From contig CM037587.1 of assembly GCA_021018995.1 (NCBI GenBank), forward strand, positions 5,210,866 to 5,274,865: DNA of 64,000 bases, in the 5' to 3' direction. This document shows positions 1-46,923 of this stretch, piece after piece (within the stretch, counting starts at the first letter, position 1; each line of letters starts with the position of its first letter). Both the position numbers and the translations under genes were made by a program. This stretch comes from Chloranthus sessilifolius (Eukaryota; Streptophyta; Magnoliopsida; Chloranthales; Chloranthaceae). The notes beneath the pieces are model-generated. The model searched no databases. It was not told the origin of the DNA and was given only the letters and a program-made list of their open reading frames with translations.

Positions 1-339
1 AGGGTATGAGGAATGCAATAGGAGGAGCACAAGCACAGTCTAAGTGCGTGTGAGGCCTTTGCGTGCTGAATCGGAGTCTATAGATTGATTATCGGGGTCG
101 CATCGGCGAGACGACTCAAGTTCTGGATCCGAAACCCTCTTTAGGATCGATTTTCTGAAACCCCTAAAGGGCCCAACAAAAGGTGAGTTTGTACGTTTAA
201 ATAGGGGCAAATGAGAGCCCTTAAGTATGTGTGTGTGTGTGTGTATTAATGGTTGCAAGAAACCATTAATGCGAATGGGTCAAAAATAGGGAAGTAGATG
301 ACCTCCATTAATGACAGAGTTTCTGTCATTATTGATCAA

Positions 340-973
340 TCAATGACAAAGATTGATCGATCAATACTTGGGTGAATGATCAATGAAGGTCACTGATCGA
401 TCAATCTGTATAGGACAAATAAGGGAATAGGAACATTGAAAATCCTGAAAGTTCAATGCTCGAAGGGCATTGATCGATCAATTTGTAGATTGATCGATCA
501 ATCATGAGTATTGATCGATCACAGAGAGGGTGATCGATCAATGACTGGTGGTGATCGATCAACAAAGGCATTGATCGATCACTGGTGTGTATTGATCGAT
601 CAATGAAGGCATTGATCGATCAATCTGTATAAATTTTAAATGTAAACAAAAAGTGGAAAAATTGAGATTTTAGGCTATTGATCAATCAATGAGAGTATTG
701 ATCGATCAACAGGAGGCATTGATCGATCAACCAAGTTGGTGATCGATCAATTTTGGCTGTGCTAAAATGAGGAGAAAAGAGATTATTGATCGATCAACAA
801 GGGTATTGATCGATCAATGATGAGTGGTGATCGATCAATAGAGGCTATTGATCGATCAATTTGCTCTGTTACTTGTTAAAGAGAAGAGAGAATTGATCGA
901 TCAATGGGGTCATTGATCGATCAACAAGAGGGATTGATCGATCAATAGGAGTGGTGATCGATCAATCACCCCT
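340..973. repeat. Array of TTGATCGATCAA palindromes in LTR A1
   Basis: About 20 copies of the 12-bp palindrome TTGATCGATCAA (or its GTGATCGATCAA half-variant) occur with irregular spacers of about 5-50 bp. Only the word is conserved, so this is not a tandem repeat. Occasional GATCAATC or GATTGATC variants are what deamination of the central CpG would give. The array sits inside the predicted LTR intron. Confidence 0.9.
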
Positions 974-1752
974 GTTTTCTGCATGTTTTAGTTTTGTGAA
1001 TAAAATCTCACTGGACATTGTGCCAGTTTATGTTCTGACATCCCTGACACTTAGAATACTATATTTAGGGTCTAGGATCAGACCATGACTTTCTGAAAGG
1101 CTTTGAATTTGCTTAGAAAGAAGTTTGACCTGAGGTAGGGGAATTCATTTGAAATTGCATTTATTTTTTATCTCATGGTTCCAAAGCTTATGTATTTGAC
1201 TGCATAGTCTGATTTTACTGTCCAGTCATGTCTAGCATATGTGTGTTAACTCTATTGTAACTCAGACACCTATCATCTGCCATATGAATTTCGTTCAATA
1301 TGAAATGCCTGCATATGATTTATGGTTTAATACTCTGACAAATCCCACCGACTTGGCGGTATAACCGTTTCTGGCACACTCGTGCATCTGTTTGAAAATC
1401 CTCGGCACAATTGCACTCCGTAGTTGAGGCATTGTTGCATTCCTGAAATTTTTCATGTGAACGACGATGGTTGGGATTACCCATCGGATCAAATTTGGCT
1501 ACCACGTGCTATACTCACGGGAGTTATTTAATTTTACTATGCTAAGTCATTATACACTGTATGCATCACATTTTGTCAATTCTGATAAAATCAGTCTACT
1601 TGATAAATTCTGCATATTTGAAACACTGTTGGCATCTGTTCAGTTCTGTTTATATCTTCTACAACCATGTTTTACAATTAAGATGCAACTTTAATTGATA
1701 TTCTTCTACTGAGCTAAGATGTAGCTCACTCTACTTTCTATTAACTTTATAG

Positions 1753-1865
1753 GTTCTGAGGCAGTAGCTCCCGGCACCGAGAGCGACCCTGATTACCAGC
1801 CTGACCCGGAGGCTAAGGCAGAGGACGAGGAGACGGACATTCAGGCAGACGAGTTCTACCTGTAG
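1753..1865 (+). CDS. Acidic terminal exon encoded inside LTR A1
   Basis: A 3' splice site (pyrimidine-rich tract, then ...TTTATAG) is followed by GTTCTGAGGC and an open frame of 36 codons before TAG. The frame gives an acidic peptide: SEAVAPGTESDPDYQP, then a run rich in E, A and D, ending in DEFYL. The same exon, with the same length and stop context, is present in the reverse LTR at 6365-6477 and (three bases shorter) at 31597-31706, and a diverged counterpart lies at 4163-4263. The upstream exon would end at the donor at 182/183. In that frame the upstream sequence is open but has no ATG in this copy, so the start of translation is unknown. It may instead be the C-terminus of a longer spliced product. 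The function is not recognised. Confidence 0.5.
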
Positions 1866-1934
1866 CCTAGGTATTTGAGTCCGATATTTTGTATTTTGAT
1901 ATTTCGGATTATTGTGTGCCTGGTGGCCTCCGTT

Positions 1935-1936
<2 letters not shown>

Positions 1937-1999
<63 letters not shown>
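1937..1999. repeat. (TA)n microsatellite
   Basis: About 31 TA dinucleotides within LTR A1, just after the conserved GTGTGCCTGGTGGCC phrase. Other LTR copies have only a short TATATACATATA at the same place, so the expansion is specific to this copy. Confidence 0.97.
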
Positions 2000-2001
<2 letters not shown>

Positions 2002-2054
2002 CTATAGATATTGTATTTTTTATGCTTTTATACATTCTATTGGAACCACTTTCA

Positions 2055-2300
2055 GGAACAATTGTTTGGGTGATGAATGTCCATCACCAATGGTTCTTCT
2101 TGGTTTCTTTCTGGGAATGTATATTCTTTTGGTAAATAGAATTACATGTTTTATTTATTGTACTCATTTATTGTAAATTTCTTATGTGATGACTCGACCT
2201 ACCACTGTTGGACAGTGTTTGCTTGGTTTTCGCTATACGAGCAGACACTTTATGATTTGTCTTGGGGATCATCCAGGGTATGATCTTGATGGCACGGATT
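2055..2300 (+). promoter_or_regulatory. Three conserved stem-loops in the LTR 3' region
   Basis: Hairpin 1 pairs GGTGATG with CATCACC, with flanking GGAAC/GGTTC pairing (about 2055-2097). Hairpin 2 pairs AGTGTTTGCT with AGCAGACACT (about 2213-2251). Hairpin 3 is GATCATCCAGGGTATGATC (about 2266-2284). All three recur in the other family A LTRs. This is inferred to be an RNA-level element near the R/U5 region of the transcript. Confidence 0.6.
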
Positions 2301-2328
2301 TTTGGGTATGAAAATTCGGGCTGTCACA

Positions 2329-2719
2329 GCTTTGCACTTCGCAATCCTTCATATCTCTTCTCATGGCTTTCTTCTGAGTCTTTATTGGTCTTTTTCTTCT
2401 ACTGCTTTCTTATGCTTCTAGCTTTTCAACCCTTTGTAAAGTTAACCCTTCCAGGTAGACCTTCAACCCTATGAATTTGAAATCGATGCTAACTCATCAA
2501 AAGAGGTTCTACCTTTCCATTTTTCTATGGGGCCATTATGGAAAGAAGTTTTAAAACTTATGGACTTACAAAAATTTTCCCAATTAATAAAGGGTCTCAA
2601 GTCTTTAACTTGTAAATTAGATGGTAACTTTTAACGTTAGGACATCAAATTCTATACTTATATAATTTGATCTAAGTGTTGGTGATGTTATTTTTATTCC
2701 TTCTAAAACTGGATGCTTA
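2329..2719. other. Sequence between elements, no gene seen
   Basis: AT-rich sequence between the LTR A1 end and a CACTA MITE. No open frame with recognisable similarity, RNA gene or repeat was seen. Confidence 0.6.
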
Positions 2720-2839
2720 TACTACAAAAATAACACTATTAGCGGCAGCCTGCCGCTATTAATAAAAACGGCAGCTACCAAAAACTGTCGCTATGGCCCT
2801 TAACAGCGCATGCCGCTGAAACACCTTATGTTTGTAGTG
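2720..2839. mobile_element. CACTA-type MITE, 3-bp TSD TTA
   Basis: A short element with terminal inverted repeats (T/C)ACTACAAAAATAAcACTATTAG ... TTTGTAGTG and internal GCGGCAG/CTGCCGCT words. It is flanked by TTA on both sides (2717-2719 and 2840-2842). The first base of the left TIR is changed from C to T. It belongs to the same family as the elements at 7795, 39755, 40493 and 42989. Confidence 0.8.
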
Positions 2840-2857
2840 TTATTAAAAGCAAGGATT

Positions 2858-2858
<1 letters not shown>

Positions 2859-2895
<37 letters not shown>
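2859..2895. repeat. (GA)n microsatellite
   Basis: An uninterrupted AG/GA run of about 18 units. Confidence 0.95.
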
Positions 2896-2896
<1 letters not shown>

Positions 2897-2981
2897 GGAA
2901 ACGGGTGGATAGGGTAGTAAGTCTCTTGCTATATAAATGATAAGAGGGTGGGTATGGGCAGACCCAACCCAATCCAAAAAT

Positions 2982-3143
2982 CAAGCTCCCAAGAGAATCC
3001 GGTCAAGTCAAAATTTGAGTCAATTGGAAATTAGGTCTTAGATTTGGAACCAGACCAATTTTCAAGCTCCCAAGAGAATCCGGTCAAGTCAAAATTTGAG
3101 TCAATTGGAAATTAGGTCTTAGATTTGGAACCAGGCCAATTTT
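2982..3143. repeat. 81-bp direct tandem duplication
   Basis: Two adjacent copies (2982-3062 and 3063-3143) of a unit that starts CAAGCTCCCAAGAGAATCCG. They are nearly identical (for example ACCAGACC against ACCAGGCC), so the duplication is recent. It lies just upstream of the LINE fragment. Confidence 0.9.
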
Positions 3144-3463
3144 CGGGTATCAGGGTCAATTGGGTCCAATCGGGTTCAACACCAAGTTCAACACCCCTTG
3201 CTTATTTGATGGGGAATTTTTCTTCTAACAATGTGTCCCTGAGCGATCTGAAAGTCCTTCATGAGGTTTTTTACGTTATCAACAAGGAAAGAAGCAGACT
3301 GAGATCAGGCTTCAAGATGAAGAAGATAACAATAAACAAGTGTCTGAGGGGATTGACAGGGAGTGCAAAGGCCATTAAGGAGAGTGGGGGTGGGATGCCC
3401 TTCAAGACGTCCAATTTCCTTGTCTTTGGCGTCTGTTCTCTGATTTTTTTTCTTTTTTCCACG

Positions 3464-3634
3464 CAAATTCTTTGTTGGAATGTCAGGAGTGTGAAGAATC
3501 CAAACAAATATAAGGTAGTTAAGAACCTCATTAGGACGCTCACTCCGAATTTCGTCATTCTCCAAGAATCCAATTGGGAAGAGGTTGCTAATAGGAAAGT
3601 GGTGTCCGTCTTGATGGGAAGGCATTGGGATTGA
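3464..3634 (+). pseudogene. LINE endonuclease N-terminal fragment
   Basis: The open frame that starts at 3125 ends with ILCWNVRSVKNPNKYKVV and then NFVILQESNW. This is the start of the apurinic-like endonuclease domain of plant L1-type LINE ORF2: the Asn of SWNVRG and the Glu of the (M/L)QE(T/S) motif are both recognisable. The frame stops at 3634. Downstream sequence is interrupted by the LTR inserted at 3828. No RT domain remains here. Confidence 0.7.
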
Positions 3635-4162
3635 GAGTGCCTTCAATCGGTGTGAAGCTCTAGGGGTATTCTTGTTGCCTGGATTACCATCTGGTTCGAG
3701 AAGGTGGAAGAGGAGACGAGCTGTTTTTTCTGTTTATGAGAGGGCACGGATTTTTTGGATACCTGGAAATTCCTTTAGTGTTGCTTAATTCCCTCAGCAG
3801 TTTATGAAATTTCCTTTTTTTTGTGGGTGTGATGACCCGACTTTTCCAATCCTTAAGGTATAGGAAAGGCCGGTTCATCAACTTATTAATTTCTCAATAA
3901 GCCGTAATTCAACCAGAAGCCGGCAGCATAAACAAAGGTCTAAGCAGAGGCAAAGCAAAAATAAGCAAGAACAAAAGCTTAATCAAAACAATATATCACC
4001 CTGAGGAACCAGGAAAAACCACCGGTGATGGCCAATCCAACACCTAAAATAGTAGTTCCTAATGATGGTTCCTCAAGTGATATCCAAAAGACAAAACAAA
4101 TGGCCTAGGGCCCAATATTCAAAGAATAATTCTAAACAAAAGTACCAAAAGACAATCTAAGA

Positions 4163-4263
4163 TCAGGGGAAGAACTCCTCAGCAGGGGTCTCTAATTCCT
4201 CCTCAGGAATGTAGTCGGAGTCCTCCGGATCAAGATCGTCTGCTCCTAGGTTAGTCTCAGCAC
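4163..4263 (-). CDS. Acidic terminal exon encoded inside LTR B
   Basis: On the minus strand CGTCACAG|GTGCTGAG is followed by an open frame to TGA. It encodes an acidic peptide: GAETNLGADDLDPEDSDY, then IPEEELETPAEEFFP. It matches the family A exon in position, acidity, the DSDY/SDPDY core and the (D/E)(D/E)F(F/Y) C-terminus, although the nucleotide sequences are clearly diverged. The frame is also open upstream through the predicted splice site as far as an ATG at 4369, so an unspliced 68-residue product is an alternative. Confidence 0.45.
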
Positions 4264-5089
4264 CTGTGACGTATAGTCGGGGTGAGCTAACATCGAAGCC
4301 CAATTGAGGAAACATGTCTATTTGCATTTTATCATAAGTAAAAGTTTTCAAAGATAGGAATTGGATCAATTATGATTTTCTAAAGATGCATTGCAAGTTG
4401 AATCTCTAATTCTAAATAGAAAGCTAAAAGCCGAACTAATGTATCTGATGTTTTCAAATTTTCTGAATTAGGCATGTTTCTTGTCTTAAATTTGTAACTT
4501 TAAATAATCTCTCAAATTACATACTAGTATGAGAGCGGAAAAGTCACCGATGGGAAACCCTACTGGCCATCGTCGTTCATGAACCCTTTTTCGGAAGTGA
4601 AACAAGCCCCTACGTACTGAGGGTAACTTGCACACGCAGAATACTGTCAACACGGCTGGTAGAATCTAGGGTTTCGTTCTTATATGCCTCAAATCGAATG
4701 CAAATAGTAAATATATCAAAGCTTGTATACATAATACATTTACGGATTTTCGGAGTTCTGATTCGGAGTTCAAAGTTCGGATGTTCATATTTCAGTGTTC
4801 TTATTTGTGTCAGAATTCAAAGTTCTTATGCATGCTGTGTCATTCAAAATTTTAGAATTTTATGCTTGATATAAAACAACTTATAATTATAATAGAATCC
4901 AAATCAAGTTTTAGGTTCCCCTACCTCAACATAAAGCGATTTAAAAACAAGAAAGGCAGTCCTCACAATGGACTCTCTATTTCAAATCCTACAAGGATTA
5001 ACACTACAAGTGTTAATAGTGGTCCAAAAGTCAAATCCGAAAGCTTACCGATAAAAATTTCGATAAAAACTCAAAGGCCAGAAACAGGG

Positions 5090-5205
5090 CAAAATTCGAC
5101 CCTTGAATTTCCAAAATATGCATCAGGCTAAAAAACTCAAATTCGACCCTCGATTTTCAATTCAATGGTCGAATTCCAAATTCGACCCTCGAATTTCCCA
5201 GGTCT
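5090..5205. repeat. TTCGACCCTCGAA palindrome cluster in LTR B
   Basis: Four or five copies of AAATTCGA-CCC-TCGAATTT (dyad with a CCC centre) or halves of it lie in about 115 bp. They are at the position in the LTR where family A has its GATCGATC array, upstream of the shared TGAGGTAGGGGAA landmark. Confidence 0.75.
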
Positions 5206-6364
5206 GTGTTTATTAACAATTGGATCTTTGGATCCGTTTGCTCATTCATCCACAGTTTGTTTATCTCCACAAAAATCGCTAAGAATCTACTCTAAGCAAA
5301 ACTAAAAATTTTTAACTCAAAGCGGTTTAAAAGCCTACCTCTTGAAGTTTAGTCCGTCGATCCCGTTGCACCAAATTCAAGCACCGGAACTAATTTTCGA
5401 AGTTTAAGAGGTGTGGGCCTCCAATCAGTCCATTCTAACCTTGCTTTCAGAGCAGCAGGTCTGACCCACACAGAACTATCCTCTCCCCTATCATTCTCTT
5501 TTAATGGCTTAAACCGATCAGAAATTTAATACAAGGTTAATAAATGGTTGGGATGGGGAGAGGGATTCACAATCACACAAGATCTAAGATCAAAGACAAG
5601 AGGCAAGGGTTGAAATTTTAAATTCAAACGAGAGAGAGAGAGAGAGAGAAGTGAAACTTCTCCTCAAAGCCTCTCTCTTTATAATACTAATAATAACCAA
5701 ATATCTAGATTTTTAAATTTATAATCCTATCTACTTAAATTACATTAATTTTCGGCGTTAAGCGCATATACAAGACTTAACGTGTAAGTTACCAAAAATA
5801 AAACGTCCATAAGTCTGAAACAAAAATCCTTTGGTCACTATTCTCATCATGCACTAAGCTATCCAAAAACCCAGAAATATCCCGCAACTTTTTCGGACAC
5901 GCTTATCGAGGTAAATGAAAAATGGGTCCAAAATATCAGGGATATTACAGTGGGTGTTTCTGTGACAGCCCGAATTTCTGCGTTAAAAAATTCGTGCCAT
6001 CAGGATCATACTCTGGATGATCCCTAGGACAAATCACGAAGTGTCTGCTCGTATAGTAAAAATCAAGCAGACACTGTCCAGCAGTGGTAGATTGAGTCAT
6101 CACATAAGGCTTTATAAAAAGAAATAAGCAATTATATATATATCTCAAAAGAATATATATTCCCAAAAAGGAACTAAGAAGAACCACTGGTGATGGACAT
6201 CCATCACCCAAACAATGGTTCCTGATAGTGGTTCCTATAGAATGTATAATAATACAAGAAAAGAAAAATATCTACAAAAAATAAATACGGAAAGTGGCCA
6301 CCAGGCACACAATAATCTAAAGTTTTATACAAAATCCCAAAAATAGCAGACTCGTATACCCAGA

Positions 6365-6477
6365 CTAAGGATAAAAGTCATCCGGCTGGACGTCAGTCTC
6401 CTCGTCCTTAGCCTCAGCCTCTAGATCAGGTTGGTAGTCAGGGTCACTCTCGGTGCCGAGAGCTCTAGCCTCAGAAC
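6365..6477 (-). CDS. Acidic terminal exon in LTR A2
   Basis: After the minus-strand 3' splice site ...TTATAG the exon begins GTTCTGAGGC and runs 36 codons to TAG. It encodes SEARALGTESDPDYQPD, then an acidic stretch with DEETD, ending DDFYP. It has the same length as the exon at 1753-1865 and aligns to it without indels. Of 24 base differences counted by hand between the two, 15 are at third codon positions. That supports past protein-level constraint. Confidence 0.5.
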
Positions 6478-7274
6478 CTATAATTATTATAAAAACAGGG
6501 TGAGCTAACCATCTAAGCTTAGTAGAAGAATTTCAGTTAAAACTGCATCTTAATTGTAAAGCATGGTTGCAGAAGATATGAACAGAACTGAATAGATGCA
6601 AACAAATGTTTTAGATATGCAGAATTTATCAAAGGAGGCAGATCGTATTAGAGTTTACAGAATGTGATGCATATAGTGTTTAATGACTTAGAATAATAAA
6701 CTTAAATAACTCCCGTGAGTATAGCACGTGGTAGCCAGATTTGGTCTGATGGGTAATCCTGACCATCATCGTTCACATGAACAATATCTGGAATGCAACA
6801 ATATCTTAACTACGGAGTGTAATTGTGCCGAGAATTTTCAAGCAGATGCATGATTGTGCCAGAAACAGATATACCACCGAGTCGGTGGGATTCGTTAGAG
6901 TGTTGAACCTCAAATCACATGCAAACATTTTCTACTTAATAAGAAATCAGATGACAGATGACAGGTGTCAGATAGCAGGAGTCAGATATATAACAGAGTT
7001 GTTACACATATGCTAAACTTGACTGGAAAGTAAAATCAGACTATGCAGTTACATGCAGAACATTCGGAATCCATGAGATCAAGAATAAATACAATTTCAC
7101 TTGAATTCCCTTACCTCAGGTCAGACCTTTCTAAGCAAATCCAAAGCTTCTTAAGGCATCATGGTCCGACCCTAGACCATAAACATAGCATACTAAGTGT
7201 CAGGGGTGTCAAATATCAACTGACACTGTGTCCAGTAGCTCAAAGTTTATAAATCCTAGACAGGTCAAAAACAG

Positions 7275-8085
7275 GGGTGATTGATCGATCAACACCCTTA
7301 TTGATCGATCAATCCTTCTCTTTGATCGATCAATGGGGATTGATCGATCAACACCCTTATTGATCGATCAATACCCTCAAATTACTTCACAAGCAATAGA
7401 GGTAGTTGATTGATCAATAGCCTTTATTTATCGATCAACACCCTTCATTGATCGATCAATACCTAAATTGATCGATCAATAGCTCCTTTCTCCTCACACT
7501 TTGATAGAGTAAAATTGATCGATCACCAGCTCAGTTGATCGATCAATCTGTCTCATTGATTGATCAATGACCTCATTGATCAATCAATACCTTAAATTTT
7601 TAAATTTCCCTCTTTCTGTTCCCTTTTGTCACTTATACAGATTGATCGATCAATCTCCTTATTGATCGATCAATACACATAAGTGATCGATCAATACCAT
7701 CATTGATCGATCAACACCATCCATTGATCGATCACTCTCTCTGTGATCGATCAACACTAAGAATTGATCAATCAATTCACTTATTGATCGATCACACTAC
7801 AAAAAATAAGACTATTAGCGATAGTTTTTTTTAATAAAAAACTGCCGCTATTAGTCCTGTCGCTACAAAAAACTGCCGTTACAAAAATAATAGCGACAGT
7901 TTTTTATTTAAAAAAACTGCCGCTAATAGTCTTATTTTTTGTAGTGTCAACACCCATCGAGCCCTGAACTTTCAGAAATTCAAGTCCTCTGTTCCTTCTT
8001 TAAAGCTTATATGAATTGATCGATCAATGCCCTCATTGATCGATCAATACCTCTCATTGATCGATCAATCTAGTATTGATCGATC
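7275..8085. repeat. GATCGATC palindrome array in LTR A2
   Basis: More than 20 TTGATCGATCAA-type words with irregular spacing, interrupted by a CACTA MITE at 7795-7946. Several words have decayed at the central CpG (GATCAATC, GATTGATC). Confidence 0.9.
7795..7946. mobile_element. CACTA-type MITE, TSD TCA
   Basis: A 152-bp element with near-perfect long terminal inverted repeats (CACTACAAAAAATAAGACTA ... TTGTAGTG) and internal palindromic GCCGCTATTAG words. An exact 3-bp TSD TCA lies at 7792-7794 and 7947-7949. It is the best-preserved copy of the family here. Confidence 0.95.
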
Positions 8086-8964
8086 AATAATGACAGTTCC
8101 TCTGTCATAAATGGAGGTCACTTCTTTGACCTATTTTTGACCTCGATCCTTAATGGTCCCTTCCCACACTTATACCTAACCTTTTTATACATTAATTGTA
8201 ACGACCCCGAAAAAAAAAAAAAAAAAAAAAAAAAACTAGAACACGAGCCCGACTGCTGTGATCCGCGTGCCCGGCACGGAAACCAAGGTTGATTCAAAAA
8301 CTTTAGGGTTATATTAGTTTAAATAATGTGGCACCGTGATGAGATGAGATCACGTGTGCAATTTCATCTAGAACCTAGATGTGTAGAGGGTAGGTGGAAC
8401 ACGTTGCGCGGAAGCAACTATGTTCATGCTTCACACCGGAGCGGGCACCAAGGGCAAAACAGAAATTCTGCTGTGAGGAGGTAGCTTATAGAGGAAGGAA
8501 GGGAGACGAGAGAGGAGAGACTTCCACTCTTCTTCTCCTTCATCCCCTTGCCCTAATTGCTCCATAGGTTGGAGATTGTGCTAAGAAAGTGTGAAAGAGA
8601 TCCTTTGAGAGAGAAGAAAAGGGTTAGCAAGAGTGAAGATGAGGGATTCCTAAGCTACAGTAGCTAGACCAAGGTGATTGAGTTATTTGGGGTTTGAGAT
8701 TGGTGTGAGAGGCCTTGATCTGTCGAACCACAGCTGAAGAGCTTCTCGCCGGATCCGGATCGAAGAGGAGCTCCGAGATCTAGGTTTGAGACCCTCTTTT
8801 CGGGTCATTGTAACCTCAAGGAACCACGAACAAGGTGAGTTGTGTATGATAAATAGGGTTAAAGGATAGTTTAGAGGGTGTATTTATGAAGTATTAATGG
8901 TGATTGAACAACCATTAGTGGAGGAGATCAAAATGGATGGGAGGTGAACTCCATTAATGACACT

Positions 8965-9545
8965 TTTGATCGATCACCATAGGGTGGTGATCGATCCGAG
9001 GGTTGATCGATCACCAAGGACTGGTGATCGATCAATCTGTATAAGCCTTATGGGGAACAGAGACCCCAAAAGCTAGGAAGTTCTTGCCCGAGTTGTAGAT
9101 CGATCACTAAGGTGGTGATCGATCTACAAGGGAATTGGTGATCGATCACCAAGGTGGTGATCGATCTACAAGGGAGTTGGTGATCGATCACCAAGGTGGT
9201 GATCGATCAATCAGAGTAAGAAATTGATGTGATGTAAGGGGAGTTTTTGAAATTGCATTGGTGATCGATCACCAAGGTGGTGATCGATCTACAGGAGGGT
9301 TGGTGATCGATCACCAAGGTGGTGATCAATCTACAGGAGGATTGGTGATCGATCACCAAGGTGGTGATCGATCAACCTTGACTGTGTTGAGAGAGAGATA
9401 GGTAGGTTGGTGATCGATCAACAAGGTGGTGATCGATCAACCTTGACTGTGTTGAGAGAGAGATAGGCAGGTTGGTGATCGATCAACAAGGTGGTGATCG
9501 ATCTACAGTGGGTGGTGATCGATCAATGAGGTTGGTGATCGATCA
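8965..9545. repeat. GATCGATC array in LTR A3 with a higher-order repeat
   Basis: About 20 words TGATCGATC(A/T) are arranged in larger repeated phrases such as GGTGATCGATCACCAAGGTG. Here the spacers themselves are partly duplicated, so local tandem amplification has acted on top of the word array. Confidence 0.9.
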
Positions 9546-10338
9546 CTTACCCTGTTTTTGTCTGTCTTGGCTTTATAAAGTAGGCACCCCGGATGTGGTG
9601 CCGGGTAATTCTCTGACACTCCTAACACTTAATGTACTGTGCCTATGGTATAGGATAAACCCTGACACGTCGAAAAAGCTTTGGATTTGCTTAGAAGATA
9701 AACTGATCTGAGGTAGGAGAAAACCAACTTAAACTGCTTTTGAGTATGATTTTATGTTCATTTCATGTTCATGCCCTGATTTCTGTTTTTTTTACCAAGC
9801 ATATATGCATAGCATGAATCTCGTCATCTTGATTTCTGTTTCTGATCTGAATAACTGACATCTGTTTCTGAATTTCTGCTATCTGATCTGTGAGGTATAT
9901 AAGTATGTGATTTAATGATTTAATCCAGATGATCCCCACCGGCCCGGCGGTATATCCGGAGTCCAGGCACACTTGTGCAATTGCTTTCAAATCCTCGGCA
10001 CAATAGCGCTCCATAGATGAGGCATTGTTGCACTTTCAAAATTGTTCATGTGAACGACGATTTGGTTGGGGTTTCCTATCGGTCATTCTCACATCTGCTA
10101 TACAGTCACGGGAGTTTCTTAAGTTAAATAGACACACTTTAAGTACTCTGATAATATATCTGCATGACATCTGACATCTTGCATAAAGTTCCCAGCTTTT
10201 AACTGATTTGTTTTGAGTACATGATCTGGATTTGTCTTCTGTTATGAGATAGCATGATCTGCATATTCAATTCATTTAGATGGTTTTTCTTCTATTGAGC
10301 TATGATGTAGCTCACCCTGCTTTCTGAAATCTTTTTAG

Positions 10339-10450
10339 GTTCTGAGGCGCGTGCAAGACCGAGAGTGACCCGGACTATCGGTAGGATCCGAGGCCGAGGA
10401 GAGGGCGAGGAGAGGAGACGTCGGTGAGTTTTATACTTTTGATCTTTTGG
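10339..10450 (+). pseudogene. Decayed acidic exon in LTR A3
   Basis: The 3' splice site TTTTTAG|GTTCTGAGGC is kept, but the exon has small deletions (GAGGCGCGTGC, then GACCGAGAGTGACC) that shift the frame. It still ends with a recognisable GAGTTTTAT, the DEFY region. It is the only family A copy here in which the exon is broken. Confidence 0.5.
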
Positions 10451-11449
10451 ACTATTGTGTGCCTAGTGGCCACCTTGTATATACATATATGATTCTACGT
10501 TTATTTAGTTTATGTTAGTACACATTCCATTTCGGAACCACTATCGGGAACCATTGTTTGGGTGATGTGCGTCCATCACCGATGGTTCTTCCTGGTTCCT
10601 TTTTGGGAATGTGTATGTTTTTCCTTACATTTAAATATTATTGACGTGTATTTAGCGTAGAAATTGTTTGACTCAGACTACCGCTGCTCGGATGTGTCCA
10701 CCTAGCTTCCGCTATATGCGCGGACACGTGTGATCGATCCGGGATCATCCAGAGTATGATCCTAACGGCACGGATTTCTGGAGACGGAAATCCGGGCTAT
10801 TACATTAATGGTGTTCAATTCTTGACTATTTTAATTTCAGAACTCACCTATTTGATGGCCCTTTTGGGGTCTCGGCAAACGAAATCCGAAGAGAGTTTTC
10901 AGATCTAAACTCTCCGATTCGTCGCCATCACAACCCAAAACAGCAAATACTTGGATCTGTCTCTACTCACAGTGCTAGCTCACGTCCTCTCATGACAACT
11001 CGAAGTACCAACGTCGATTTCACGCTCTCAAACTGAGAAATCGCCAACCTTGGTCTCTCGTTTAACTGTGATTTCTCACAGAACTGTTCTCAACCTAAAT
11101 TCCTTACTAGGGTTTCTTAGGAACAAGAAGAAGAAGAGGATAAAGATAGATATTCTTATCTTCTTCCTTCTCTTATAAGCTAAGAAAACAGAAATATCCT
11201 TGATATTTCTGTTTCACCTTAACTACGCTCTGGTGTGAAGCTCCTACACATTTTCTACGGCATACCACGCCACATCAATGTCCTACAAGCCTCGGACTCA
11301 TGCGAGAAGTCATACATGACTTTGTCTAACTATGGGGTAACATTATTTCAAATAATATTAATTACTAATTTTTAAATTTGTCTCGATTTCTGTGTCGGCA
11401 CGCATATCGAAACAGTTAGGTTCTTGTTCAAAATTTTAGGGTCGTTATA

Positions 11450-13894: not shown

Positions 13895-16270
13895 TGATTT
13901 TTCTTTTTAATACGTAAGCTTGAGGTCGAAGGGTCCTCACCCATTTTATTAAAAGGAAGTAACATAGTACAAAAATTTCAATAACAAAGTAAACTTTAAA
14001 AATCAATAGAAGCTTCGGCATCGCCATCACCCCTATTAATCTCCACAATTACCCTAATGCAAATTCGATGCCGCCCTAATATATTGATCATCATCAGGAA
14101 GCTTTAGAGAATCCACCAGAAATGAGACTTCTCTAATGATACTATGAAGAATCGTCCTCTTTTGAGTAATCACATCATTAAAGATACGATCATTTCGCTC
14201 TCTCCAAATAAAAGAAATGGCAGTGCAAAAAATATTACGAATCAAATGGTCCTTCCATTTATTTCCTTTAGACTGTTCCATACATCTCTTCAACTCTTTA
14301 AGTAACGAGAGTTTATTGTTAGTATTGATTCTCAGCCTGGATTTGATGGATCTCCAAATCCATTGAGAATAACCACAACCAAAAAATAAATGCTCAGTGT
14401 TCTCTGAATCCACCCAATATAAAACACACCTAGAAGGGATACTAATACCCCTTTTGCAAAGATTATCTATGGTCATGAGCTTAAAATTTATTATTGTTAT
14501 GCACAGTAAGAGTACTTTGTAATATTTCCCGAATTCCAAATGAAGTATTTTCAGTCAACTACCATTCCTTTGGTTCTAATAGCATGTCAAGCTGATCGAA
14601 GAGAAAATTTTCTATCTCTTGAAGGTTCCCAACTTCATCTATCATGTAGATCAATATTGGGCGCAACAATAGTACGAACATCCTTCCAAGCTTCTTCCAA
14701 GTGAATTGTTGAGGGATGTGGCAAAATCCATACCCCATCATGGGACACATCGTTAACCATAGTGTTCTCATCAAGACTAGAATGAAGTAGAAATCTTCTA
14801 CTATATGTAGGAATAAAAAAATTTCCATTAACCCAAGGATCAATCCAAAAGTTAGTAGCCCCATTCCCCAAAACTAATTGGCAATTTCTTAAAGCAATGT
14901 CCCTGATAGAAAGAATTTTTATTCACGCCCAAGAAGGATCCCTTGGCCAAGAATAATTTCAAATGCTCTATCTCCCTACATACTTAGCCCGCATAGCTCT
15001 AGCCCAAAGAAAATCATTCTGAATAATAGACCAAAAGAGTTTTGTCATAGCACAATTCCAATCAGTGAAATTACGAATGCCAAGGCCTCCTTCCTCTTTC
15101 AGTTTACAAATTCGCTTTCAATTAATAGGATGCATAGACTGAGCCAACGACAGCCCTCTCCAAAGAAACCAACAAAAGATATTTTCAATCTCTTTAATAG
15201 TTCTCTTTGGAAGGATAAAGGCACCCGTCCAGTAAATCTAAAAACTGCTCAAAGCTGAAGATATTAAAACGAGTCTGACAACATAAAAGAGAAAGTGTCC
15301 CTTCCAACTTTCCAATCTATTTCTGATTTTCTGAATGAGAGGATTGCACATAGAATGAGTCATTCTTGAAGAGAATAGTGGAATGTTCAAATAATGAATG
15401 GGTAGAAAATTTTGTTTGAAGTTTAAACCTTCTTGAATATCTTTTTTGGCTTGACAAGCTTCACTAAATATAATTGAACTTTTGCTATCATTCGCCATAA
15501 GTCCGGAGCAGTTATGAAAGAACTCAAGAGAGTTTTTCACCACTTTTGCAGACCCAACGTCATCCTCGAGAAAGAGAATGAGATCATCTGCAAATATGAG
15601 ATGAGAAATACTTGGCCCACCTAGCAAGTTAGGAACACAAATCCTCCCTTCATCAATTTTTTGCTCAAGAACACAAGTAAATATATGCTTCTATTACAAG
15701 AGTAAATAATAAAAGAGACAAAGGATCTCTTTGTTCGAATACTATATATTCCACTAAAGAAACTATAAGGGTACCCATTAACAAGGATGGAGAAGGTGGG
15801 AGTAGTACTACATTGGGTAATCCATGCTACCCAGATGTCATCAAAGCCCATTTGTCTAAGGATAGCAATAGCGAAATCTCATCTCACTCGGTCATAAGCT
15901 TTTCGGATATCAATTTTTGCACACAGAGCTTTCAAACCACTAGTTGAGGTGGAACTTTCTAACCATCTCATGAGTAAGTAAAATATTTTCTGTTATTCGC
16001 CTTCCCTTCACAACAGCGGATTGATTCGAGCTTACAAGATCCGAAAGTGCCAAAGCAAGTCTATTTGAGATTATTTTTGTGATAACTTTATAGACGAAGT
16101 TGCAAAGGGCGATAGGTCTCAACTTGTCAACGGCATTCACATCATTTTCTTTCGATATAAGCTTAATAAAAGTAGAATTAATAGACTTTACAAGTTTTTT
16201 TTTTATAAAAGAAATTTTTTACCGCACAAGTGAAATCCTCCTTGACACTGCCAAGTAATAAGTAAAAATT
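13895..16270 (-). mobile_element. 5'-truncated L1-type LINE, reverse orientation
   Basis: On the minus strand the element begins in the reverse transcriptase domain (about 16270, aligning with 51270 of the LINE at 48246-53630) and runs through RT, a connecting region and a zf-RVT domain. It ends with ...AAAATGGGTGAGGACCC and an A-rich tail at about 13895. It belongs to the same family as the LINE inserted in the desaturase fragment, because the tail and zf-RVT sequences match closely. No clear target duplication was found. Confidence 0.85.
14054..16255 (-). pseudogene. LINE ORF2 remnant (RT and zf-RVT)
   Basis: Reverse frames encode, in order: an RT fragment with NAVDKLRPIALCNFVYK and SNQSAVVKGRRITENI (about 16140-15940); LLGGPSISHLIFADDLILFL with an intact F-ADD catalytic box (about 15640-15590) and the following thumb region to 15238; a linker (14871-14559); and a zf-RVT domain with GISIPSRCVLYW, HLFFGCGYSQWIW and IWRERNDRIFND (14539-14054). 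Frameshifts and stops separate these blocks, so no full protein is possible. The active-site box is better preserved than in the copy at 51.9 kb. Confidence 0.8.
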
Positions 16271-19921: not shown

Positions 19922-20077
19922 AGATATGCATAGATATTTTGAGCCCGTATGTGGGGAAAGGTCACTGATTTTTCATGCTCATAAATATATATACGTGTTT
20001 ATCCTCAGGTTTGGCAGCGCGTGCGTCGGATAACTAATACTAATACCTTGGAGGACGGATCCTTTTCCATATATATA

Positions 20078-21912: not shown

Positions 21913-22021
21913 TCTACAAAAAATAGGTTATCCCAACGGCTCCTATTAAGAAGCCGTCAGCGTAGATATATCTTACATCGATGGCTATTATGGGAAGTCG
22001 TCGGCATAGGGTTTTAGTATA
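21913..22021 (+). mobile_element. CACTA-like left terminus (copy 1)
   Basis: CTACAAAAAATAGGTTATCC is followed by repeated (G/A)GCCGTC(G/A)GC(A/G)TAG words in both orientations. This is the arrangement of CACTA termini with subterminal repeats. The first bases of the terminus are altered. The counterpart is at 46770-46836. The matching right end was not found, so its extent is unknown. Confidence 0.45.
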
Positions 22022-22070
22022 TAACCTACTGCAAACACCTCACACAGTTCACACTCTCTACTGAAATCGC

Positions 22071-22073
<3 letters not shown>

Positions 22074-22109
<36 letters not shown>
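22074..22109. repeat. (CT)n microsatellite, copy 1
   Basis: CT run in a leader-like sequence (CTCTACTGAAATCGCCTCCT, CT run, TTCAAAACCCTAA). The counterpart is at 46885-46921. Confidence 0.95.
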
Positions 22110-22112
<3 letters not shown>

Positions 22113-26863: not shown

Positions 26864-27419
26864 ATGGAGGACGGAGGCCTTTTCCAAAACTTAATACTGT
26901 ATTAAATCCCTGGTCATACCAAGTCCAATATCCATAGTGCAAATCAAAGCAGGTCTAAATCAAATCCTCGCGTAAGGTAAAATTTTTCAAACAGGAGATC
27001 CCAAGCCTTTATCCAGTGTTTGATCCTGATCAACACCTGTACCTGTGACGTATAGTTGAGGGATGAGCTACATTTAAGCTCAGTAGAGAAGCATCAATAA
27101 CATGTATATTATCACATCACGCATATATCTTATGATAAAATCAAACATGCTTTTCACATAAAGACTCACAATTTGAAGAATATTCGACTTGAAGCAACAC
27201 TAATATAACACACGAATTTTTTGTTTAAAGCTTAAACACATGATTTCAAAACTTATTCCCATAACAAAAGAAAAACTTAAACTGATAATTTAAATAATTT
27301 TCAAGCACTATAGCATCAAGCCTCGATGGGATACCCACCATCGTCGTTCAATTGAACACTTTGAATAAGTTACGCAAGCCCCTTCGATGAAGGTGACTTG
27401 TCAGAAGAAATATTATCGC

Positions 27420-27545
27420 ACATGGTAATCAAATACTGGATATCCCGCCGGACCGAAACACAAGTTGTACAGATATCCCGACGTACCGGTCACAGATATC
27501 CTACCGTGTTGGTCACGGATATACCGCCGTGTCGGTTGGGTATCG
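27420..27545 (-). repeat. Four tandem copies of a GATATCCCGCCG phrase in LTR C
   Basis: Four diverged units of about 30 bp (GATATCCCGCCGGACCG, GATATCCCGACGTACCGG, GATATCCTACCGTGTTGG, GATATACCGCCGTGTCGG). Family A LTRs have a single copy (for example CGACACGGCGGGATATCCG at 31163). The 5' LTR at 60 kb has expanded the same phrase differently. Confidence 0.75.
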
Positions 27546-28069
27546 CTCATAACCTTAAATCAAAGTGCAACAATAAATTATAGTTCATCATCGTGTATTG
27601 TGATAATTTATATGTAGTTTGGAGTTTCAAAACTTCCACACCATAGGTTTAGAGTTTCAAGTTTCCACACACACACATTCACATTCCACACCATAGGTTT
27701 GGAGTTTCAAAGCTTACACGCACACATATTCACATCTTAACATCATACACACATTTAGCTGATTTTACATGGCACAAATCTGAGTGCACATACTCACACA
27801 TAATTTTCATATTTAAACTAATTAGATGACAAGTTACACACAACACATATATTTGATCATAACATAAAATGCATGCTAATCGTAACCAATGTACATGTTA
27901 AGGAGTTTTCCCTACCTTAAGCTCAGAGCCGATCAAAGCCACACCAAAGTCCCTATCGACAGCCTCCCGTTCTCAACCTATATTATACATATGAAGATGT
28001 ATCAATAGTTGATTCTATGTACTAATAAATTTGGTGTACTTATATGATTTCTCAAAACCGAGGCGGAAA

Positions 28070-28455
28070 TGGGCAACTTCGTGCTAACTTGGATTTTGGT
28101 CAAACTTCCTACTAAATTTTGACCTTTAAAATGGTTTATTAATAAGTTGGTCAATTCTCAAAAGTTGTAGAAGTCGTTATCCTCTCTCCAACGCCGTGAG
28201 AATCGTGTTAATCAGAGTTTGGAATAAAAAGTTACGACCAAAATATAAAAGTTGTGTCAGCACTTCAGTCAACATGTGCTAACCTAGAACTTGGCCTAAC
28301 TTATAGATCAATTTTGACCCTCAAATATTTGATTCATGAGTTGGTTAACTCACAAAAATTTTAGATCTCTTTATCCTCTTTCCGACGCTACAAGAATCGC
28401 ATAAATCGAAGTTCGGAGCTGAAAGCAATGGCCAAAATACCAAAGCAGTGTCGGC
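28070..28455. repeat. Diverged tandem duplication of about 190 bp in LTR C
   Basis: Two units share phrases such as GTGCTAAC, TTTATCCTCTTTCCGACGC and AGTTCGGA. The first is near 28070-28260, the second near 28262-28455. Confidence 0.6.
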
Positions 28456-28464
28456 ATGCTCAGG

Positions 28465-28565
28465 CAAAATTGACCAGTCAATTTCAAATTTGACCGGTCG
28501 GTTTCTCCAGAACTCAAATTCTTGCTGTTTTGTGAAAATCGACCGGTCGATTTTTGTCAGATTTC
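28465..28565. repeat. GACCGGTC palindrome cluster in LTR C
   Basis: Three long palindromes in about 100 bp: AATTGACCAGTCAATT, AAATTTGACCGGTCGGTTT and AAATCGACCGGTCGATTT. They are at the place corresponding to the GATCGATC array of family A relative to the AGGTAGGG landmark. Confidence 0.75.
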
Positions 28566-28610
28566 ACCTAAACTCGGGTTTGAGCTTCTCCAACCCATTT
28601 TTGTCAGATT

Positions 28611-29487
28611 ATACATGCTAGCACCTCTCGACGTTCTAAGACCTCCACCACTACTCTAGAAAGTGTGCTCGCTACAATTAATGTAGGCAATAAAAGGGTT
28701 CATGAGCTGCTCGATAGGATGCAGGAGTTCCAGTGTTAGGTGCATTGACGGTTAGACTTTCATGTGGGGATGCTAACTCTGTTGATGTAGCATGCATACT
28801 CTACCATAGCTACCCCTATGATCGGTCACGCTCAACTGCATGTCGTCGATCCTCGTGACTACTGCACCGAGCCACCTAGACCCAGTAGACCTGCACCTAC
28901 GGAGCCTAGACCATCTACTCCACTCGCAGGTGACCACTAGATCTTTGATTTAACTTTATAACTATATACATATATTTCTGATTCCATATTTAAATTTTGC
29001 TTTGCATTCATGACTGTTTTTCTGCATGAATTATATTTTTGACTGCTTGTGCCTATTATATTCGATATCTGTTTGATTGCTCTAGCCCTTGTACACCTTT
29101 TATGCGACATATCTGCCCTGCACTATACTTCTGTCTGATACCTCTAGGTTAATTACTTCAATGTCCATGTGTGTGATTTGTGTACATGGTTGCTTGAGTC
29201 ACGGTGGGGTGTTCTTCCAAGCACGTGACCCTTGGGACAGATGCATCCAGGTACGGATGCAATCCTCTATGACATTATGGGATGTCACACGCAGGACATT
29301 CAAATTACTACGGATCCCGGCCCTTCACAAACGTGCTTAGCAAAGTTTATTGCACTGTGACCCACTCTTATAGTTAGGATTGTTTTGTTTCTGTTCGTTC
29401 TGAGAGATTTTTAGGATTAGGACACACCGTAGACCTGTCTGAGTATGTCTGACATTTTCGAGGACGAAAATTCCTAAGGGGGGAGAA
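28611..29487 (+). mobile_element. 3' internal region of a Ty3/gypsy-type element, with polypurine tract
   Basis: No pol domain was recognised. It ends with CATTTTCGAGGACGAAAATT and AAGGGGGGAGAA (29476-29487), a polypurine tract directly before the LTR at 29488. The left end is a junction with the reverse LTR C. Confidence 0.7.
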
Positions 29488-29759
29488 TGTAATGACCCTA
29501 AAATTTTGAAACATACTTAGCTATTTTGGTATACGTGCCTGGCATGAATATCGAGATAACCTTAAAATTTTTTATTAATAATATTAATATCAATATTATT
29601 AATCTATAGGAGTGTGAAGTGATGTGTCACAAGCAACACAAGTCTGAGAGGCGATTAGATTCTTTGTCGAATGTTATACACGTGAGTGTAGTGTATGCAC
29701 TCAACACCGGAACAAAAGATTTAGAAATAGAAATATCCTGGATATTTCTCTTTCGTAGC

Positions 29760-29766
29760 TTATAAG
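29760..29766 (+). promoter_or_regulatory. TATA box of LTR A4
   Basis: TTATAAG followed by a purine-rich AGAAGGAAGGG, conserved with CTTATAGAGGAAGGAAGG at 8484. It lies about 270 bp into the LTR and about 310 bp before the predicted splice donor. Confidence 0.55.
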
Positions 29767-30224
29767 AGAAGGAAGGGTAGATAATACCACATCTCTCTTC
29801 CTCACTCTGAAAACTTTGCCTGGAAGCTAATGCTAGAGAACTCCTTGTAAAACCAAGGCTCGAGAAACCCTAGATTATGGACCCTCTGAATTAGAACGTA
29901 AAGGAATCGACATGTGTACGTTGAATCTATTTAGGAAGGCAAAACACACCTGTGTTTTGACGTGGTGATACACCTCTGGTTCTTCAGAGAGCTCAAATCA
30001 GCAAACTCTTGAATCCCAAATCTGAAACACACTTTGAGCCGAGGATGCCGTGAACCAAAGAAGCAGCCATCAAAGAGGTGAGTTATTATAGGTTTTTAGT
30101 AGTTTTGATGCTGTAAAATATGTAGATGCATGTGCACGGGTGATTCACTGAGAATCATTAGAGTTATGGTTGAAAAATAGTTAAAATCAATGAACCTTAT
30201 TAATGACAGAAACTGTCATTTCTG

Positions 30225-30780
30225 ATCGATCAAATTTAGTATTTGATCGATCAAATTATAATTCGATCGATCAAATTTTATAAATCCTTTATATAACAGG
30301 AGGTCTATTTTATAAAAGTTCATGCCCGATAAATTCGATCGATCAAATTTTAAGCTGATCAATCAAACCATAAAGTGATCGATCAAGTGGTAAACTGATC
30401 GATTAATTGAGAAGTTGATCGATCGAACTGTGAGATTGATCGATCATTTTGGGAAACTGATCGATCAAATTGTATAAATGCCTTATATAACAGGAGGTCT
30501 GAAATTATGAATTTTGACTTTAAAATCCGATCGATCAAACATGAGAATTGATTGATCAAATTTAGAATTCGATCGATCAAATGAGTAAGTTGATCGATCA
30601 AAATCCTCTGTTCTGTGTACGTAAAATTTTAGGTTTCGATCGATCAAACATGAGAATTGATCGATCAAATTGAGGATCTGATCGATCAAATAAGGAAGTT
30701 GATCGATCAGAGGCCCCTGTTCTGTCTATGTTAGATTATGGAATCCGATCGATCAAATAGGAATGTTGATCGATCAAATT
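30225..30780. repeat. GATCGATC palindrome array in LTR A4
   Basis: About 20 words, here mostly (A/T)CGATCGATCAAA or TTGATCGATCAAA. The flanking bases differ slightly from copies A1-A3, so the word is drifting between subfamilies while the GATCGATC core is kept. Confidence 0.9.
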
Positions 30781-31596
30781 TTCCGGTTTTACTTGTTTTA
30801 GTTTTTCTGGGGAAAACAAGGCTGGACTTTGTACCAGTGATTGTTCTGACATCTTTGACACTTAGTACATTGTACGTATGGTCTAGGTCAAGATCGAGAC
30901 ACTTTAAAAAGCTTTAGATTTGCTTAGAAAGACCTGATTTGAGGTAGGGGAAATTCAACTTAACTTGTATTTGATTTTGACTGTATGATCTCCTAGCATC
31001 TGTATTTTGACTTCTGTTTTCAAAGCATACCTTGCATATAATAAAAGTTTTGTCATCTCTGATTCCTGTTTTATGATCTATGCTATTTGATTCCCGATGT
31101 TCTGTATATGTATTGATTTAAGGTTTATGAATCGAATCCCCCTAACGTGGCAGGAGATCCACGACCGACACGGCGGGATATCCGTGCATCTGATTTGTAA
31201 ACCCTCTTGCACAAGTTACTCTCCTTTGAAGAGGCTTGATGTAAATATCTGAAATTGTTCACTGAACGACGATGGTCGGGGTTACCTATCGGCAAACATC
31301 TGGCTATCACGTGCTATATTCACAGGAGTTATTTAAATATAGAATTTAAGTCACTAAATACTGTATGCATAGCATCTGAAAAACTCTAAGAATAAAGTCT
31401 GTTTTCTGATATTCTGCATCTGCTCTGTTCTTTAAAATTCTACATCTGTCATCTGATCAATTTTGCCTGCATTCTCTTATTTGACCTCTGTTCTGAGCTA
31501 TGTTTTGCAAATCATATTTTATATTTTAGATACAATTTAATTGACTTTCTCCTATTGAGCTTAGATGATTAGCTCACCCCTGATTTTATATCATAG

Positions 31597-31706
31597 GTTC
31601 TGAGGCTAGGGCTTCTGGTATAGAGAGTGGCCTGGATTATCAACCTGAAACTGAAGCCAAGGTTGAGGAGGAGGACACTAATACCCTAGTTGACGAGTTC
31701 TATTAG
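31597..31706 (+). CDS. Acidic terminal exon in LTR A4
   Basis: After TTTTATATCATAG| the exon starts GTTCTGAGGC and encodes SEARASGIESGLDYQPE, then an acidic stretch, ending DEFY and TAG. It is one codon shorter than the exons at 1753 and 6365 but otherwise collinear with them. Joined to the predicted donor at 30077/30078, the frame is open upstream only to a TGA about 40 nt before the donor, with no ATG. Translation from this copy is therefore doubtful even if splicing occurs. Confidence 0.45.
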
Positions 31707-32118
31707 TAGCTTGGATATTTAGTCTTGTATTTTGAGAGTTGTACATGTGTATTTTAGATTATCTGTGTGCCTGGTGGCCACTGTTCTGTATTATTTATTG
31801 TAGATGATTACTTACGATTTTATACATTTGATAGGAACCACTGTTGGGAACCTTTATTTTAGGTGATAGATGTCCATCACCAGTGGTTCTTCTTAGTTCC
31901 TTTTTGAGGATGTATATTCTTTTGTTATACTTATATATATAAATTTGTTTCCTTTCTTGTTATCTAAAGCCTTATATGATGACTCGATCTGTCACTTTAG
32001 ATAGTGTCTACTCTGATTTCCGCTAGATGAGCAGACACTCCTTGGTTTGTTCTGAAGATCATCAAGGGTTATGATCCTGATGGCACGGATTTTCAGGTGT
32101 GAAAATCCGGCTATCACA

Positions 32119-46882: not shown

Positions 46883-46884
<2 letters not shown>

Positions 46885-46921: not shown

Positions 46922-46923
<2 letters not shown>

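Follow-up and report, generated by a model that had tools for sequence, protein, structure and literature searches.

Long terminal repeat (LTR) retrotransposons represented in a 64,000-nucleotide stretch of the Chloranthus sessilifolius genome (GenBank assembly GCA_021018995.1, contig CM037587.1, positions 5,210,866 to 5,274,865, forward strand; this whole stretch is called the window) carry arrays of short palindromic words in a largely fixed slot upstream of a shared landmark, TGAGGTAGGGGAA, and the word differs between LTR families. The words are conserved above the spacers that separate them, and elements of the same genome that possess an additional open reading frame (ORFx) have a second array of their own word class upstream of it. 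Each word probably serves as a binding site for a DNA-binding protein, likely a dimer, that the element itself encodes and that is specific to its family; ORFx is the best candidate for the binder.

Word arrays in the LTRs of the window

The palindromic word arrays that a preceding sequence-only reading had described in these LTR families are real, with 20–25 words per copy in family A, four in B and three in C. When TTGATCGATCAA was searched for within one mismatch, 74 matches were found in the window, compared with a mean of 0.30 in 100 shuffles, and all but one of them (73) sat inside the four family-A arrays; chance clustering was rejected on this basis. The family-A words had been called irregularly spaced, but their spacing is regular: the 69 short intervals of A1–A4 have a mean of 20.3 bp (standard deviation 1.1), and the longer gaps are mostly 45–47 and 62–77 bp. 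Only the 20–21 bp steps fit whole helical turns (10.5 bp), and helical phasing across the long gaps was discarded, as 46, 66, 72 and 77 bp do not fit. The word itself varies within the family, being GTGATCGATCAC-like in A3 and (T/C)(T/C)GATCGATCAAA across much of A4. The description of the spacers as unrelated holds for A1, A2 and A4, in which mean pairwise spacer identity within an array is 0.41–0.48 (0.30–0.33 expected from composition), but not for A3 (0.89). Judged by its spacers, the A3 array is a recent tandem expansion, and slippage is accepted as its recent history. Similarly, a position just upstream of the landmark applies to A1–A4 and B, where the last word lies ~168–173 bp from it, but not to C, where two ~194-bp repeats, 70% identical to each other, separate array and landmark and bring the distance to ~556 bp.

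The family A and B LTRs in the window are genuine LTRs, as shown by target duplications, nesting and a polypurine tract. LTR A1 (1..2328, +), homologous to A2–A4, has its 5′ end beyond the window and its 3′ end, AATTCGGGCTGTCACA, at 2328; it carries 23 words with the core GATCGATC (332..965, +), arranged in blocks with 20–21 bp steps, and the landmark at 1131..1143 (+). Word counts for A1–A4 refer to this core with up to one mismatch. The solo LTR A2 (5961..11449, −; flanks GTTTC/GTTTG) is split by the nested solo LTR A3 (8197..10804, +; target duplication TTAAT/TTAAT). The A2 array of 25 words (7281..8087, no strand assigned) is broken at ~7796–7948 by an insert resembling a miniature inverted-repeat transposable element (MITE), and its landmark, with one mismatch, is at 7106..7118 (−); A3 has 22 words of the GTGATCGATCAC type (8966..9546, +) and a landmark, also with one mismatch, at 9709..9721 (+). 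A4 is a 3′ LTR (29488..32118, +) with 20 words (30222..30777, +) and the landmark at 30940..30952 (+), and a polypurine tract, read from the sequence, lies immediately 5′ of it (29476..29487, +). The solo LTR B (3828..5949, −; target duplication GTGGG/GTGGG) has four AATTCGA-NNN-TCGAATT-type words (5095..5193, no strand assigned) centred at 5101, 5148, 5167 and 5187, with gaps of 47, 19 and 20, and the landmark at 4916..4928 (−). LTR C is a fragment (26900..28610, −, ends approximate) with three GACCGGTC-type words (28470..28550, no strand assigned), two of them imperfect, separated by gaps of 20 and 49, and a landmark variant with two mismatches at 27907–27919. A4 and C lie outside positions 340..9545, to which the sequence-only reading applied.

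Word classes across the genome

Genome-wide counts covered 2.17 Gb in 32 contigs, with the reversed word as control. TTGATCGATCAA occurs 65,226 times (317 for the control), tandem word pairs 25,453 times (control 0), and exact copies of the landmark 5,065 times (control 150, both strands). The B word was counted 3,025 times against 0 (both strands), and the word of a further class, D, 892 times against 2. The first 100 listed tandem-pair places, on contig C1, form nine clusters, each upstream of a landmark (exact or with 1–2 mismatches) at a distance of about 170–195 bp or about 570–590 bp. Clustered words are thus tied to the LTR context in all nine cases, but some single words are not, since roughly one third of the first 50 listed TTGATCGATCAA sites are words standing alone elsewhere.

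The LTR sample comprised 86 of the 100 landmarks listed, every one of them on contig C1; the other 14 are the second members of closely spaced landmark pairs on one strand, in most cases the mate LTR. Of the 86 loci, 74 had three or more words belonging to a single class (A 42, B 11, E 10, D 9, F 1, G 1) and the remaining 12 had fewer, the classes having been defined from the same loci in which they were counted; among composition-shuffled slots (n = 86), none had more than one word of any class. The new words are ATCGTTCGA(A/T)CGAT for D, CTCGCTCGCGCGAG for E, CACAGCTCGCTGTG for F and AACCGATCGATCGGTT for G, with F and G known from one locus each and C from the window only. A CpG is present in each of the seven consensus words. 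The offset within the LTR is not random: the last word lies 157–204 bp from the landmark in 66 of the 74 arrays, 556–572 bp in six, 365 bp in one and 259 bp in one. All six A-class LTRs with the 556–572 bp offset contain a C-type insert, 70–75% identical to that of C over 393–409 bp, which had no match in the two A LTRs of normal offset that were compared. The ~194-bp repeat pair lies at 27950–28470 in C, and these six A-class carriers are L010, L014, L016, L048, L055 and L112; the five that are on the LTR tree described below do not group together within the A clade, a pattern that would fit exchange of the module between families. Within C, TTTGACCCTCAAA at 28313–28325 resembles a B word with both CpGs deaminated, and is possibly the trace of an older C word.

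Intervals of 18–23 bp account for 638/790 in A, 52/68 in B, 44/77 in D and 13/42 in E, which is therefore much less regular. In A and B alike, blocks of four words are followed by a gap of 47 bp (about 20, 21, 20 then 47 in A; 19, 20, 19 then 47 in B), despite their words being unrelated. When no word was preset, the commonest 12-mer reached at least seven copies at 45 of 70 loci (shuffles gave at most six), and in 40 of these 45 it was palindromic at 0.7 or better, perfectly so in 34; of the other five, two were unclear and three proved to be half-words of class B or D, cut off-centre. This de novo search thus agrees with the counts by class.

A tree was built from the 480 bp after the landmark for 60 of the 70 loci and six window LTRs, the 10 loci left off having fewer than two words or doubtful calls. 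Word class changes 10 times on this tree, for eight labels and a minimum of seven changes (shuffled mean 33), and so largely follows LTR phylogeny. The interpretation given with the sequence-only reading is partly supported: the sequences show a largely fixed slot, dyad symmetry in every family and words tied to LTR lineage, together with the word conservation and the second array described below.

Conservation of words relative to spacers

Sixteen words of A1 and A2 stand in collinear order, which makes the comparison of these two arrays free of alignment choice. Words are identical at 183/192 positions (95%), short spacers at 69/109 and long gaps at 52/89 (61% for spacers and gaps together; words versus spacers, p about 2e-17), and the downstream LTR at 778/957. 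No indels were found in the 378-bp array stretch, against 4.3 expected at the downstream rate (P 0.013), and identity in the spacers is below that in the downstream LTR (p 3e-9). The two arrays have no 24-mer and three 21-mers in common; such spacer divergence would fit evasion of small RNAs but is no proof of it. In three other A pairs, identity was 263/276, 239/252 and 259/276 for words (94–95%) and 107/143, 202/239 and 56/100 for spacers (56–85%). In family B, the pair L039 and L070, the only one of 21 with more than three collinear intervals, showed the same contrast (words 159/170, spacers 45/80, p 9e-12). None of the 36 D pairs had more than four collinear intervals, and one gave p 0.024, the rest being non-significant or empty.

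These data bear on whether the arrays could be slippage products from neutral tandem-repeat turnover, with the words as leftovers. Higher-order repeats of about 105–109 bp are present, and the recent expansion of A3 is of this kind. However, L001, a single neutral-looking bacterial slippage array with a 21-bp period that served as control, keeps its spacers along with its words (0.906 versus 0.947), unlike A1 (0.405 versus 0.937), and homologous words are conserved far above both spacers and the downstream LTR. Pure slippage was accordingly rejected as the origin of the A and B arrays, in line with the earlier statement that slippage alone does not explain the words, and we consider neutral turnover hardly likely at all. 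Pattern matches L001–L004, four arrays with repeated spacers in metagenome-assembled genomes, were judged unrelated to the LTR arrays, and scans of viral contigs for the array pattern gave no matches.

A further possibility is that the arrays are targets of host silencing which attract methylation and are tolerated by the element. The CpG common to all consensus words would favour this, but the words are kept while spacers diverge to the point of leaving no shared 24-mer in A1 and A2, a pattern that looks more like evasion of small interfering RNAs. Across 39 A LTRs, CpGs were intact at 675/741 places in words and 301/376 in downstream CpG columns, a difference that may owe something to the structure of subfamilies and to the selection of words close to the consensus; this lower decay is compatible with protection or selection, and runs counter to a role as silencing targets, which we regard as highly improbable.

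The elements, ORFx and a second array

The elements were represented by ten same-strand landmark pairs 8.4–10.1 kb apart, of about 15 listed, which were read in pieces. The family-A element L088/L087 matches the Pfam families Retrotrans_gag, RVP_2, RVT_1, RT_RNaseH, Integrase_H2C2 and SH3_Tf2-1, with weaker matches to rve (0.0055, under the cut-off) and Chromo (6e-5; 23.3 bits, cut-off 25.1), and from this domain set and order it is a Ty3/gypsy chromovirus, possibly of the Tekay lineage. ORFx lies in sense orientation between pol and the 3′ LTR, is open for 485 codons in L087 (P0001), and was detected by tblastn in nine of the ten elements, L095/L096 being the one without it. Three of ten ORFx segments matched Transposase_32 (PF20167) at E up to 1 (0.073, 0.049 and 8.3e-7), none of the ten exceeding the curated cut-off of 45 bits (best 29.5), and none matched DUF1985 at E up to 1. 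A search of the PDB gave three matches, the best at E 0.17 and none convincing. In the genome, 89 matches to P0001 were listed, many without an internal stop (the best-scoring 88 of 49,799 first-look candidates).

ORFx is under purifying selection, with dN/dS of 0.10–0.23 within A/A′ (four usable of five comparisons). It has a conserved domain, which is the part weakly similar to Transposase_32, a proline-rich linker and a stretch that looks by eye like a coiled coil. Between A and B, identity is 79–82% for reverse transcriptase, 65% for gag and 38–43% for the ORFx domain, with no detectable match in the C-terminal part of ORFx, values from frame-broken copies being underestimates; ORFx is the fastest-changing product measured. 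In the window, a decayed C-terminal ORFx remnant adjoins A4 (28641..28916, +; tblastn 51% over 92 amino acids).

Roughly 150–860 bp upstream of ORFx lies the second array, and in all nine ORFx elements its words belong to the same class as those in the LTR of that element, scored as A (A′ included), B or D. L095/L096, the one element of ten without detectable ORFx (LTR class D), has no second array. At tight thresholds, 14–15 internal words were found in each of three A elements, 5 and 3 in A′, 7 and 5 in D, and 4 and 2 in B; looser thresholds gave clusters of 15, 15, 15, 8, 6, 15, 12, 6 and 3. Other word classes appeared in the pieces upstream of ORFx as just one or two isolated matches. The finer split between A and A′ is also concordant between the two arrays, save in L091/92, whose LTR is a mixture. 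When the LTR array and the internal array of an element were compared by BLAST, most of the similarity fell in the words. In L094 (D) and L092 (A′) a TATA-like box lies 16 and 21 bp, respectively, after the last internal word, and a script found none in the other seven elements; in L085 (D), CTATATATAG follows one word before the end of the cluster.

This concordance is relevant to two other explanations, both of which we find less likely than an element-encoded dimer. According to the first, the arrays are bound by transcription factors or insulator proteins of the host, a different one having been recruited by each LTR family. The C words resemble the W-box core, TTGAC, which counts in its favour. 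Set against this is the presence, within a single genome, of seven different words at corresponding places in related LTRs (with C, F and G represented as given above), together with a word class that is repeated before the element's own ORFx and missing from the lone element without ORFx. Arrays of repeated host-factor sites are known in LTR elements, namely the BII boxes of Tnt1 (PMC3316501) and the insulator of Drosophila gypsy (PMC9917439); on balance, recruitment of host factors appears rather unlikely. The second would have neighbouring self-complementary words pair in the transcript, forming hairpins for splicing or packaging. Self-complementarity is common to all word classes, transcription is expected to cover the arrays, two neighbouring A1 word pairs are exact reverse complements down to their variant ends, and in the internal D arrays (L085, L094) words stand mostly in pairs about 21 bp apart with 40–63 bp between pairs. 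As the A and B intervals are uniform across blocks rather than pairwise, and the words recur upstream of ORFx, RNA pairing seems quite improbable.

A candidate LTR-encoded acidic tail

LTRs A1, A2, A4 and B contain a short acidic frame, closed by a stop codon, that follows an acceptor with the branch-site-like TAGCTCAC; in A3 the frame is broken. The candidate terminal coding exon of A1 (1753..1865, +) has the acceptor TATAG|G and an open frame with third-position-biased change relative to A2 and A4. Its counterparts are at 6365..6477 (−) in A2, 31597..31706 (+) in A4 and, at the equivalent position, 4163..4263 (−) in B. Between A1 and A2 the exon has dN 0.11 and dS 1.10, with 5, 3 and 14 changes by codon position; in a codon-position scan it was the strongest in A1–A4, and other A1–A2 windows reach similar bias by chance. 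Of 30 loci sampled, 12 had comparable acidic frames (eight in A and two each in B and D).

A phase-1 donor, CAG|GTA, stands at the end of the ORFx frame in four of five A/A′ copies, and its phase matches the phase-1 LTR exon; in A, the ORFx frame can therefore run into the LTR tail, with the array inside a candidate intron. A phase-1 donor is also found in the D element L094 (CAG|GTGAAG), and the ORFx remnant beside A4 has a candidate 5′ splice site, GCAG|GTGACC, after 28929 (+). Predicted splicing of ORFx to the LTR tail thus fits A, is half supported in D and is not supported in B. TATA-like sites at LTR positions 290 (A3) and 274 (A4) precede arrays that begin at 772 and 737, and the LTR array would accordingly sit in the transcribed part of the LTR, within the candidate intron. 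Two other coding models were rejected: a spliced reading frame starting in LTR exon 1, for which no consistent open frame or start was found, and the landmark as 5′ splice donor to the acidic exon, because the required phase puts a stop codon just before the landmark (by eye).

Proposed mechanism

Palindromy that is kept as the letters change, conservation of the words, spacing of about two helical turns and two arrays that change together point to a trans-acting dimer that would change with the family. The second array of the same class upstream of ORFx, the position of ORFx and its fastest change favour ORFx as the binder, as do its conserved domain, its linker, its coiled-coil-like stretch and the candidate acidic tail onto which its frame can be spliced in most family-A copies and one of two D copies. 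Whether the binder is element-encoded or host had been left open, and the evidence leans towards an element-encoded one. We suggest that the ORFx protein would bind both the LTR array and the array upstream of its own gene, that binding would keep the LTR and the ORFx gene active, through autoregulation or opposition to silencing, and that the divergence of families would involve joint change of the word and its protein. Activation is suggested by the acidic tail. That the protein binds, forms a dimer, and activates or counters silencing, and that the splice is used, are predictions from sequence features.

Several observations weigh against this proposal. ORFx has no recognised DNA-binding domain. 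It diverges about 1.4–2.3 times as fast as RNaseH/integrase at all distances (compared by hand), with no extra jump where the word changes; word-specific acceleration of ORFx was looked for and not seen. All nine ORFx elements fall into just three word lineages, namely B, D and A together with A′; the internal B arrays are weak, their 4 and 2 words being counted at up to two mismatches; and it is possible that one array arose by copying from the other. Word turnover on the LTR tree is not clean (four changes in A, three in E, two in B and one in D), and several rows of that tree are long branches. Finally, L085 has CTG|GTGGCG at the place equivalent to the L094 donor, so that one of two D copies has it, and neither of the two B ORFx copies has a clear phase-1 donor.

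More tentatively, and short of calling it probable, we propose that ORFx encodes a family-specific transactivator or anti-silencer with an LTR-encoded acidic tail, which binds the palindromic arrays of the LTR as well as those in the promoter region of its own gene; the same principle may explain the long-puzzling additional reading frames, env-like or of Transposase_32 type, in other plant LTR elements, Sireviruses included. If so, the terminal repeat would carry a target array plus part of the protein that reads that array. An open reading frame with two arrays of one word, together with seven natural word classes in one genome, amounts to a ready-made specificity panel, and the recognition pairs could, if the proposal is correct, become tools to address chosen loci.

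Other features of the window

A 138-bp tandem repeat (16637–18477; 13.3 copies, about 90% matches) is open in one frame per strand (697 and 757 amino acids), the plus-strand frame having no Pfam match. Inverted copies resembling long interspersed nuclear elements, about 78–83% identical and with RVT_1 and zf-RVT matches, lie at 14008–16219 and 51319–53522, and a direct duplication of about 4 kb is found at 19222–23038 and 43908–47850 (segments 86–96% identical, spaced about 24.8 kb). MITE-like hairpins with TAGCGGCAGTTTTT-like ends are at 7796–7948 (the insert that breaks the A2 array), 32130–32190 and 43064–43175. An LTR module, TGAACGACGATGG...CCATCGG, is conserved in A, B and C (1453–1500, 31258–31300, 4549–4579 and 27330–27350), as is a GGAACCA hairpin near the LTR 3′ end; both are possibly structured RNA elements.

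Comparison with known systems

The protein that binds the Su(Hw) insulator of Drosophila gypsy is a host protein, and we know of no turnover of words between related families at a fixed slot for this insulator or for the Tnt1 BII boxes. Both consist of clustered protein-binding sites in an LTR element (PMC9917439, PMC3316501). In the open-access literature, as far as its accessible portions go, we found no description of palindrome arrays in chromovirus LTRs. Additional reading frames are frequent in plant LTR retrotransposons, with functions described as unknown or unclear (PMC7264820, PMC11728184). Those at the 3′ end of Athila elements, for example in sunflower (PMC11728184), resemble ORFx in their sense orientation, their position at the gypsy 3′ end and their partial similarity to PF20167. 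Athila is, however, a different gypsy lineage, and the accessible portions of that report do not mention palindrome arrays or an LTR-encoded exon.

The nearest system in layout is that of the Sirevirus repeated motifs (RMs; Bousios et al. 2010, PMC2829016), which are palindromic CpG words present in many copies and differing between elements. Their arrays lie in the LTR and, where it is present, upstream of an env-like 3′ reading frame, as the present ones lie in the LTR and upstream of ORFx. Sireviruses are Ty1/copia elements, whereas the present elements are Ty3/gypsy chromoviruses by domains and order. Sirevirus RMs are located upstream of the TATA box and usually have a CGG-CCG core, whereas the present LTR arrays lie downstream of a TATA-like site, within a candidate intron, and the A, B and D words lack CGG-CCG. 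Specific to the present elements are the largely fixed slot, the block spacing, the weak similarity of the additional reading frame to Transposase_32 and, in A, the candidate LTR-encoded tail.

In evolutionary behaviour, the nearest system is VANC and the VANDAL elements (Hosaka et al. 2017, PMC5735166; Sasaki et al. 2023, PMC10398659). There too, family-specific arrays of short words occupy non-coding DNA, including introns of element genes (here an intron predicted from sequence only), and evolve through tandem repeats, paired with a fast-evolving element protein, as ORFx would be here. VANDALs are Mutator-like DNA transposons, whereas the present elements have LTRs, 5-bp target duplications and reverse transcriptase; the VANC21 word, YAGTATTAY, is non-palindromic and arrayed in one orientation, whereas the present words are palindromic; and VANC carries DUF1985, to which ORFx has no match. 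By analogy, the VANC precedent suggests opposition to silencing as a function of binding. If this applies, the VANDAL DNA transposons would not be alone in having evolved sequence-specific self-activation or anti-silencing, which would have arisen in LTR retrotransposons too.

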